Shown: piece by piece, positions 5,017 through 7,738 of the stretch | Position numbering within the stretch: the stretch's first letter is position 1 | Layout: every line of letters starts with the position of its first letter | Source: Clostridia bacterium | GTDB taxonomy: Bacteria; Bacillota; Clostridia; Oscillospirales; Acutalibacteraceae | DNA: 38,949 bases | Assembly: GCA_024404115.1 (NCBI GenBank) | Contig: JAKSQM010000014.1 | Coordinates: 1 to 38,949 of the forward strand | Direction of reading: 5' to 3' | Made by a program: the position numbers and the translations under genes | Notes under the pieces: generated by a model | Databases searched by the model: none | Told to the model about the DNA's origin: nothing | What the model saw: only the letters and a program-made list of their open reading frames with translations

Positions 5017-5039
5017 CGTAGGGGCGAACTGTGTTCGCC
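5017..5039 (+). repeat. REP-like hairpin (GTAG foot), type CGAAC
   Basis: CGTAGG leads into GGCGAAC (5023-5029), loop TGT, GTTCGCC (5033-5039), a perfect 7-bp stem. The same unit recurs at 5161. The GTAG at the foot of the hairpin is the signature tetranucleotide of REP elements mobilised by RAYT proteins. The 4914-5391 gap has no gene and is built largely of such elements. Confidence 0.8.
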
Positions 5040-5083
5040 AGCTTTGCATAACAATTAAATGATTGACGGCTTGATACCACACA

Positions 5084-5110
5084 CCGTAGGGGAGGGGCTT
5101 GCTCCTCCCG
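5084..5110 (+). repeat. REP-like hairpin (GTAG foot), type GGAGG
   Basis: CCGTAG followed by GGGAGG (5090-5095), an inner GGC/GCT extension, and CCTCCC (5104-5109). It is identical in core sequence to the two copies inside the transposase coding region at 7251 and 7413. Confidence 0.82.
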
Positions 5111-5160: not shown

Positions 5161-5184
5161 CGTAGGGGCGAACTGTGTTCGCCC
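5161..5184 (+). repeat. REP-like hairpin (GTAG foot), type CGAAC
   Basis: CGTAG, then GGGCGAAC (5166-5173), loop TGT, GTTCGCCC (5177-5184). Same core as the 5017 copy with one more base pair. A short flanking string, ATGTCAGCACAAA, follows it and also occurs just after the transposase stop codon near 7664. Confidence 0.82.
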
Positions 5185-5205
5185 GTTCCGAATGTCAGCA
5201 CAAAA

Positions 5206-5391: not shown

Positions 5392-5733
5392 TTATTCCCA
5401 TGTTTTCCAAATATCGGGGCAATACCCAACTGTTGCCTGCTTGCCGTTGCGGACAATCGGCGTTTTAAAAATCGTCTGATTCTCAAGGAGCTTTTCTTCC
5501 TTTGCCTCCTGCGAAGCAAGGTACTCAATAAAGCTCTGCTCATATGCCTTTGAGCTTTTGTCAAGCAGTGCATCAAAACTGCCAACCGCACGCAGAATGT
5601 TTTTGTATTCGCCATTGCTCATGCCAAACTTTGCAAGGTCAATGAACTGATACTTAATTCGTCTTTCTTTAAAATATCTTTCTGCTTTTTTTGTGTCAAA
5701 GCATTTTGCTTTGCCGTAAATTTGTATATTCAT
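5392..5733 (-). CDS. ArsC/Spx-fold thioredoxin-like protein
   Basis: 113 residues from the ATG at 5733, which follows AAGGTG at 5740-5745; the longer in-frame extension is rejected because it lacks a ribosome site and would run through the divergent promoter region. The N-terminus MNIQIYGKAKCFDTKKAERYF is the ArsC-family beta-alpha start with a single Cys at 11, instead of the CxxC of Spx or thioredoxins. The C-terminal TPIVRNGKQATVGYCPDIW matches the family's cis-Pro strand. True arsenate reduction is uncertain; many such short proteins are redox or RNA-polymerase-binding regulators. It is divergent from the CCA enzyme, and their promoters overlap face to face. Confidence 0.82.
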   Translation of the reverse strand: MNIQIYGKAKCFDTKKAERYFKERRIKYQFIDLAKFGMSNGEYKNILRAVGSFDALLDKSSKAYEQSFIEYLASQEAKEEKLLENQTIFKTPIVRNGKQATVGYCPDIWKTWE

Positions 5734-5778: not shown

Positions 5779-5800
5779 GTAATTTTTCGGAGGTGATTTT

Positions 5801-7663
5801 TTGACTATAAATATGCCCTCATTTGTTTGCACCGCTCTTGACCGCCTTAACTCTCTCGGCTACGAAGCCTATATTGTTGGCGGTTGCGTCCGTGATGCTT
5901 TTCTCAATAAAACTCCCTATGATTGGGATATTACCACCTCCGCCAAGCCGAGCGAAATATCAGACGCTTTTTCTGATTATAAAACAATCGACACTGGCAT
6001 AAAGCATGGCACAGTTGCGGTTATAATCGAGGGTGAAATTCTTGAAATCACCACCATGCGTGTTGACGGCGAATACTCCGATAACCGCCACCCCGACAGC
6101 GTTTCTTTCACAGAAAATATCAATCTTGACCTTGCCCGCCGTGATTTCACGGTCAATGCTATGGCATATTCACCTCTGACAGGCGTTGTTGACCCGTTTG
6201 GCGGTCAAAACGATTTAAACGATAAAATCATCCGCTGTGTGGGCGAGCCTCACAAACGCTTCACAGAGGACGCACTGCGTATCTTGCGTGGGCTTCGCTT
6301 TTCCTCCACCTTGCAGTTTGAGATTGAAAGCGAAACTGCCGCCGCTATGAATGAACTGCGTGAGCTTCTTGACAATGTAGCCGCCGAGCGAAAAAGGGTT
6401 GAGCTTTTGAAGCTCCTTTGTGGTGCGGATGTCAAAAGAATTTTGCTCACCTTTCCGCAGGTGATTTTTCAGATTATCCCTCAGCTTGAGCCTATGTATA
6501 ATTTCCAGCAGAACACCGCATATCATATTTATGATGTGTGGGGGCATACGGTGGCTGCGGTTGATAATGTGCCGCCACAGCCAATCTACAGGGCTGTAAT
6601 GCTTTTTCACGATATGGGCAAACCACGGGCATATTATTGCGATGATGACGGCACAGCCCATTTTAAAGGGCATCAGAGCATAAGCTATGAAATGTGCCTT
6701 GAAGTGCTTCGCAATCTCCGCTTTTCAAAGGCAGAAATTGATGAAATCAGCAAGATGGTTCTCCACCACGATATAAGACCTAAGGGGAGAGAGGACACCC
6801 TCTTGAAAGCCGCCAGAATCGGTGCGGATTTGATGAAAAAACTCTATCCTGTTTTTGTGGCAGATGCCGAAGCGCATAACCCTGCAATTGTCCCCGAAAT
6901 GCTTAACAGAATAGGGGAGAGCAAAAAATTCCTTGATGAAGCTATGAAAAATAACGAATGTTTGAGCATAAAACAGCTTGCCGTCAATGGCAAGGATGTT
7001 GCCGCCCTCGGCTTCAAAGGCAAGCAAATCGGCGAAATTTTAAATTCCCTCGTCAACGAAGTTATCAAAGGCAATGTGGAAAATACGAAAGAGAAGCTTG
7101 TGGGGTATATAAATAATTCGGGATTTGTTTTGGATAATCATTCATCAAAAAGAAAACCCAATAGATTAAAAAATTACGATTACAGCCAAAACGGAGCATA
7201 TTTTATTACAATTTGTGTTCAAGACAGAAAGCCGATTTTGTCCCGAATTTCCGTAGGGGAGGGGCTTGCTCCTCCCGAAATAGTCTTGTTACCATTTGGA
7301 AAAATAGCACAAACACAATTGTTTGATTTGCAAAACCGCTACCGTAATTTATCCATTGACAATTATGTGATTATGCCAAACCATATTCATATTCTGATGC
7401 GATTTGAAACCACGGGAGGAGCAAGCCCCTCTCCTACGACAGTATCGGATATTGTTTGTGCCTTCAAATCATTGACAACAAGAGAATGTAAGAAGATTTC
7501 GCCTGTAGAGAAGCTGTTTCAACGCTCTTTTTACGACCACATAATCAGAGATGAATATGATTATCAAATCAAGTGGCAGTATATTGACGAAAATCCAGCA
7601 AAATGGTGTGAGGATTCATTATATACAGAGAATATAGACACCGCCCTCGACAACCCGCTCTGA
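5801..7663 (+). CDS. cca: CCA-adding enzyme fused in frame to a RAYT transposase
   Basis: 620 residues; a TTG start is chosen because GGAGG (5789-5793) lies seven bases upstream, although an ATG at 5813 is possible. Residues 1-440 are a class II CCA tRNA nucleotidyltransferase: GG motif (VGGCVRDAFL, near 26), metal-binding D41/D43 (DWDI), the LRILRGLRF helix and an HD domain (HDMGK, H270/D271). This part repairs or adds tRNA 3' CCA ends and has normal family length. Without a stop codon, the frame continues from about residue 444 into a complete REP-associated tyrosine transposase: RKPNRLKNYDYSQNGAYF, HUH motif MPNHIHIL (H528/H530) and Tyr near 594 in YIDENPAKW. Two REP-like hairpins lie inside this part. 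A TTG at 7130 could also start the transposase alone (177 residues). Whether the fusion protein is made intact is unknown. Confidence 0.9.
   Translation: MTINMPSFVCTALDRLNSLGYEAYIVGGCVRDAFLNKTPYDWDITTSAKPSEISDAFSDYKTIDTGIKHGTVAVIIEGEILEITTMRVDGEYSDNRHPDSVSFTENINLDLARRDFTVNAMAYSPLTGVVDPFGGQNDLNDKIIRCVGEPHKRFTEDALRILRGLRFSSTLQFEIESETAAAMNELRELLDNVAAERKRVELLKLLCGADVKRILLTFPQVIFQIIPQLEPMYNFQQNTAYHIYDVWGHTVAAVDNVPPQPIYRAVMLFHDMGKPRAYYCDDDGTAHFKGHQSISYEMCLEVLRNLRFSKAEIDEISKMVLHHDIRPKGREDTLLKAARIGADLMKKLYPVFVADAEAHNPAIVPEMLNRIGESKKFLDEAMKNNECLSIKQLAVNGKDVAALGFKGKQIGEILNSLVNEVIKGNVENTKEKLVGYINNSGFVLDNHSSKRKPNRLKNYDYSQNGAYFITICVQDRKPILSRISVGEGLAPPEIVLLPFGKIAQTQLFDLQNRYRNLSIDNYVIMPNHIHILMRFETTGGASPSPTTVSDIVCAFKSLTTRECKKISPVEKLFQRSFYDHIIRDEYDYQIKWQYIDENPAKWCEDSLYTENIDTALDNPL
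7251..7277 (+). repeat. REP-like hairpin inside the transposase coding region
   Basis: CCGTAG then GGGAGG...CCTCCC, the same core as the copy at 5084. It is translated in frame as VGEGLAPPE within the RAYT domain, upstream of the HUH motif. Confidence 0.85.
7413..7438 (-). repeat. Inverted REP-like hairpin inside the transposase coding region
   Basis: Reverse complement of the GTAG hairpin (CGGGAGGAGC...CTCCTACG on the plus strand), translated as GGASPSPT just after the HUH motif. With the direct copy at 7251 it forms a convergent pair about 135 bp apart around the catalytic histidine codons. Confidence 0.83.
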
Positions 7664-7711: not shown

Positions 7712-7738
7712 CCGTAGGGGAAGGGCTTGCTCTTCCTC
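7712..7738 (+). repeat. REP-like hairpin downstream of the transposase
   Basis: CCGTAG followed by GGGAAGGGCTTGCTCTTCC. It is the GGAAG variant also seen at 25006 and lies 50 bp past the fusion-gene stop. The 7664-7818 interval holds no gene. Confidence 0.8.

Follow-up and report, generated by a model that had tools for sequence, protein, structure and literature searches.

The window, that is, the whole stretch of 38,949 nucleotides that was analysed, contains at positions 5801-7663 of its forward strand a single open frame of 620 amino acids, which starts with a TTG codon and has no internal stops (features collected in Table 1). The original prediction, namely, that a gene for a CCA-adding enzyme (cca) is joined in frame to a transposase gene of the RAYT type, was borne out, as the 620 stop-free codons encode a full-length CCA-adding enzyme followed by a full-length RAYT. 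The ribosome site ahead of the cca start, GGAGGTGAT, is very strong, with a pairing energy with the 16S tail of -17.1 kcal/mol, which lies beyond the 1% quantile (-11.7 kcal/mol) found for 500 background segments. In an AlphaFold2 model of the fusion, obtained from an input alignment of 39 proteins (mean pLDDT 90.9, pTM 0.70), both halves are folded with confidence, and pLDDT falls below 50 at the linker (residues 445-455), which is predicted to be disordered, at a loop (residues 540-543) that sits within the second REP arm, and in the final ten residues. The fused gene is confirmed to be truly present in the assembly, and it has been observed once so far.

Table 1. Features of the cca-RAYT locus, in positions of the window.
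Feature	Position	Strand	Basis or remark
Second REP family, CGTAGGGGCGAACTGTGTTCGCCCG	5017-5041 and 5161-5185		
Same REP as the in-gene pair, upstream of the divergent ArsC/Spx-like gene	5085..5110	+	sequence match
Divergent ArsC/Spx-like neighbour	5392..5733	-	start codon at 5733; adjoins cca in 14/14 relatives
Ribosome-binding site of the fusion gene, GGAGGTGAT	5789..5797	+	sequence and pairing with the 16S tail
Complete CCA-adding enzyme part lacking its stop, residues 1-443	5801..7129	+	Pfam, NCBIfam, orthologue length, alignment
Junction and linker, residues 444-455	7130..7165	+	orthologue alignment; pLDDT <50 for 445-455
RAYT part, residues 450-620 (start at about 450), plus stop	7148..7663	+	profile matches, alignment, conserved columns
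REP first arm, in frame within the RAYT coding sequence	7252..7277	+	sequence match
HUH motif H528-I529-H530	7382..7390	+	HIH beginning at residue 528
REP second arm, inverted, 1 mismatch, within the RAYT coding sequence	7413..7438	-	sequence match
Y594, presumed catalytic tyrosine	7580..7582	+	QYIDENP beginning at residue 593
Degenerate REP downstream of the fusion gene, 3 mismatches	7714..7737	+	sequence match

With regard to the first half of the protein, PolyA_pol (PF01743, 138 bits), PolyA_pol_RNAbd, tRNA_NucTran2_2 and HD all exceeded their Pfam cut-offs within residues 23-434, and the NCBIfam profile NF009814 (CCA tRNA nucleotidyltransferase) scored 293.9, its cut-off being 290. The GG-(x)-V-RD, DxD and RRDFT motifs occur in this half as GGCVRD (27), DWDI (41) and RRDFTVNAMA (113), and we presume their functional roles. 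The part that precedes the TTG of the junction comprises 443 residues, compared with 442 to 447 in 14 orthologues of the genus (in one of these, L015, reading began two codons late), so cca is complete, with its stop alone missing. This half deviates at six of the 117 columns that are invariant among the 14 relatives, each of which deviates at none to three of 111-114 columns in the same test; this may reflect either a slight relaxation or merely a longer branch. No second PolyA_pol gene was found in the 84% complete assembly of the source genome. We infer that the fusion protein still builds or repairs the CCA ends of tRNAs, while a flexible linker tethers the RAYT to it.

With regard to the second half, the HUH histidines anticipated at residues 528 and 530, and the tyrosine anticipated near residue 594, are in place, the former within HIH and the latter, which from our knowledge of the RAYT family we take to be catalytic, within QYIDENP. 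Taken alone, the RAYT half scores 23.6 with Pfam Y1_Tnp (cut-off 23), and inside the fusion slightly under it, at 20.7. The cut-off of 80 for REP_Tyr_transpos (NF047646) was missed both in the fusion (65.5) and by the RAYT half alone (70.8), and since four free-standing RAYT relatives score 66.6, 69.9, 75.1 and 81.3, three of them likewise under the cut-off, the low score is best seen as a property of the clade. None of 25 conserved columns is changed in the fused RAYT, and its end branch in the tree is 0.19. Thus, this half shows no sign of the decay that a useless tail would eventually suffer, which suggests that the fusion is either young or in use. The RAYT itself is a putative single-strand REP nuclease. 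The source genome carries two more RAYTs (L002 and L003), both free.

The junction itself can be read from both sides. On the side of cca, the stop of its nearest orthologue (L004 of genome G017, 55-56% identical) aligns with the TTG at 7130; on the side of the RAYT, the same TTG aligns without gaps with the ATG of four RAYTs from the genus (L018, L020, L021 and L022). The latter alignment could favour the existence of two products, compatible with the fusion, namely, the fusion protein itself and a free RAYT made from this TTG, or from a promoter remnant at the junction, and so could the similarity of the junction bases to the leaders of the closest free RAYTs, L150 and L188. However, the ribosome-site energy of the TTG, -4.5 kcal/mol, corresponds to the 25% quantile of the background, which makes the proposed internal initiation codon a poor start; the scan for consensus promoters listed none at the junction; and between 3 and 14% of AT-matched segments of the window match the leader equally well (3% for L150, 7% for L188, 11% for L184 and 14% for L185). 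A second, free product is therefore quite improbable, and the resemblance is only suggestive of a RAYT that may have been inserted together with its own leader. As no good start of its own is left to it, the RAYT is probably produced mainly or only as the tail of cca.

An error of assembly or base calling at this point was also considered, in which case two separate genes would abut, and a one-base error in the length of the T run at 7128-7131 would mimic a fusion. An out-of-frame TAA near the junction, at 7135-7137, would then end cca close to the length of its orthologues (442-447 residues), and the source assembly, 84% complete, consists of 44 contigs. However, the T run is just four bases long, and in AT-rich DNA an out-of-frame stop is common near any chosen point. 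Since neither a REP nor any other repeat was found across the junction, a mis-join there would have no obvious cause, and we consider an error of this kind unlikely.

The junction was then sought in other genomes. The search of the genus covered 18 genomes, the source genome among them, and three of these, with a completeness of 68-86%, gave no cca match; in all of the 14 other members where cca was found, the gene is unfused and has a stop at its natural end, and none of the stretches retrieved from these relatives has a RAYT behind cca. For larger groups, residues 401-620 were used as a query against 398 genomes of the family, and residues 301-620 against 394 genomes of the order and 391 of the class, these samples being overlapping. 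Among the matches listed from the genus, family, order and class samples, there is no second stop-free cca-RAYT, so the recurrence of the junction, raised at the outset, was not found there. A GTDB scan, which may omit the window's own genome, yielded 46 loci, one with cca and without a RAYT and 45 with a RAYT and without cca.

Several candidates for a second case were discarded. First, apparent matches to both cca and RAYT with internal stops, in G1027, G778, G812, G866 and G914, all turned out to be without cca; in the first four of these genomes, which belong to one other family, the RAYT lies behind one and the same gene, encoding a PNP-family phosphorylase. Second, the RAYT frame of G531 is free, with 171 amino acids, and opens shortly past a stop. 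Third, the matches of G237, G149 and G355 are RAYTs behind other genes. Long open frames around RAYTs, taken as possible fusions, were mostly GC-rich frames outside genes.

The surroundings of the gene and the affinities of its RAYT are compatible with an event in this lineage. A block of metallophosphoesterase, glycerophosphotransferase and recA genes lies downstream of the fusion; it is located elsewhere in the seven relatives examined, and was not found behind cca in the 14 relatives of the genus, where the stretch covered was as short as 0.2 kb (G013). The nearest relatives of the fused RAYT, L185 (74%) and L150 (71%), come from outside its genus, and in the tree it groups with them rather than with the RAYTs found in its genus, at 97/79, slightly less than the threshold for a well-supported node. 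This neighbourhood fits the arrival of a RAYT, or a rearrangement, behind cca in this lineage.

RAYTs also meet genes other than cca. An intact in-frame fusion of a RAYT with NIF3, stop-free over 441 amino acids, is encoded by L240 (2585-3910, genome G638), where the start of the RAYT overlaps the 3' end of a TrmK-like gene whose profile match covers only positions 1-137 out of 205; the RAYT thus sits with this shortened gene on one side and the NIF3 part on the other. In L149 (4200-4670, genome G007), the frame of a GNAT acetyltransferase runs on through the opening residues of a RAYT, which is broken by a TGA. In L248, L249, L250 and L251, from four genomes of one other family, the ATG of the RAYT directly follows the TAA of a phosphorylase (PNP_UDP_1, as checked for L249 alone among them), in frame and without any intervening nucleotide, the stop being kept in all four, and in L196 a RAYT lies in frame behind a GcpE gene. 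These fusion and contact partners are unrelated genes, and they vary.

When upstream frames of at least 120 amino acids on the same strand were considered, 51 of 102 RAYTs started between -15 and 60 nucleotides from the stop of such a frame, and 16 of these were in frame with it. A preference of RAYTs for sites behind stops, which this number might suggest when set against 7.6 expected at random positions, was discarded, since ordinary genes behave similarly: at the same loci, 46 of 98 RAYTs and 93 of 236 ordinary genes start near an upstream stop (p = 0.22). RAYTs thus often begin near an upstream stop, as ordinary genes do, so the loss of one stop suffices for a fusion.

In Escherichia coli, cca is dispensable, since the tRNA genes encode CCA. 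The source genome gave 33 tRNA matches, with loci obtained for 30, in which ARAGORN recognized 30 distinct tRNAs; 29 of these encode CCA, and the remaining one is cut by the end of a contig. A burdened cca should therefore be tolerable in this organism.

Taken together, these observations argue for an accidental fusion of genes in one lineage, tolerated by the cell, which we consider the probable explanation. A RAYT of a kind present in other genera would have come to lie flush behind cca; the stop of cca would have been lost at the junction, so that ribosomes starting at cca run on into the RAYT; and the cell may bear the fusion because its tRNA genes encode CCA. The accident is indicated by two intact, full-length halves with no loss at the joint, by the stop that is found in 14 of 14 cca genes of the genus, and by the varied partners of RAYTs. 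The undecayed RAYT half and the deviating columns of the cca half count against it. The original prediction had offered two readings, and the accidental one, in which a RAYT came to sit at the end of cca and the stop disappeared, agrees with the orthologues that stop at this very point and with similar RAYTs that meet other genes elsewhere. The other, a functional pairing, is not supported, with neither recurrence among the matches listed nor a preferred partner.

According to this second reading, the fusion would be selected, tying the supply of RAYT to a housekeeping gene or recruiting a single-strand nuclease to RNA or DNA with secondary structure. Both halves are intact in their motifs, conserved columns and predicted fold, and given that the TTG at 7130 is weak as a start for a free RAYT, RAYT output would follow that of cca. 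However, no other genome among the matches listed has the fusion, RAYTs meet many other genes, and this very genome has two further RAYTs that are free, all of which makes a selected pairing very unlikely. We regard as similarly unlikely a two-in-one protein, in which a CCA-adding enzyme with an active REP nuclease would either have the supply of the latter locked to cca or act as a tRNA-binding partner that guides the nuclease to hairpins of RNA or DNA. A functional pairing would come as a surprise, and the evidence favours an accident. If confirmed by reads, the accidental fusion would represent a natural case in which an RNA-processing enzyme has captured a transposase-type nuclease as its tail, and an example of how a chimera can arise through the loss of one stop codon.

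The REPs of this genome provide a second line of observations. The two in-gene arms of the fused RAYT flank the HUH motif, and in the predicted fold of the RNA of positions 7240-7450 of the window they pair with each other (z of -8.45 against shuffles). This GTAG-tagged REP has 38 sites within three mismatches in the genome, and the second family, CGTAGGGGCGAACTGTGTTCGCCCG, has 37 sites within two mismatches, the respective control patterns having none. L002, which is the genome's second RAYT, carries an exact inverted pair of the latter family (G000:C1:346998-347022 and 347157-347181), and no inverted REP pair was found in the gene of the third, L003. The RAYT of L150 has the same in-gene REP as the fused one, and the in-gene REP of G149 has seven sites within two mismatches, two of them inside the RAYT (control, none). 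Thus, in the two genomes and three RAYTs checked, the in-gene REP is also dispersed elsewhere in the genome.

L062 (over-long frame), L066 (a copy of L049) and L056 (truncated at the end of a contig) were set aside. Of the 52 RAYT frames that remained, 42 have an inverted pair that exceeds the 99% level of codon-shuffled controls. The arms lie at the same pair of loops, one ahead of the HUH motif and the other past it, and their sequences differ between genes. The mean score is 19.6 for arms of one gene, 9.7 for arms of different genes and 7.4 after shuffling. In no more than 20 of the 52 frames does the gene's own partner arm strictly outscore all others; many frames have one REP type in common. 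It is tempting to speculate that the RAYT gene itself may record its cognate REP, and for RAYT biology the in-gene inverted pairs may prove more useful than the fusion. As a separate observation, one RAYT frame (L068:2140-2766) has in its first loop a tandem array of some five REP-coded peptides, GDAHPGVPHTGI and its variants.

Among the papers listed from the open-licence literature, none describes a fusion between a tRNA nucleotidyltransferase and a transposase, in agreement with the earlier statement that no described protein pairs tRNA 3'-end synthesis with a single-strand DNA transposase. PMC6006769 mentions over-long proteins, discarded as fusions or annotation errors, and PMC3733652 describes REPtrons.

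When compared with known systems, residues 1-443 match the bacterial CCA-adding enzyme (NF009814; solved relatives 7otr, 6ibp and 1miv) in domains, length and motifs, whereas the fusion lacks the stop of cca and has about 177 extra residues of transposase. Its tail matches RAYT/TnpAREP proteins in the HUH and tyrosine motifs, in a cognate GTAG REP in the genome and in a confidently predicted fold, but it is here the tail of another enzyme, without a good start of its own, and its gene contains an inverted REP pair. With its in-frame REPs, the fused RAYT may also resemble TnpAREP subclass 2.4, which PMC6006769 describes as having in-frame REPs inserted in the transposase gene, generally between HuH and Y; compared with that description, the fused RAYT has an inverted pair with one arm on each side of the HUH motif. 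In-gene REPs are thus already published, and their paired layout around the HUH motif may be a refinement. Finally, in the RAYT-NIF3 protein of L240, as in cca-RAYT, a RAYT shares one open frame with a conserved gene, but there the RAYT is N-terminal, its partner is unrelated, and a partial TrmK-like gene precedes it.
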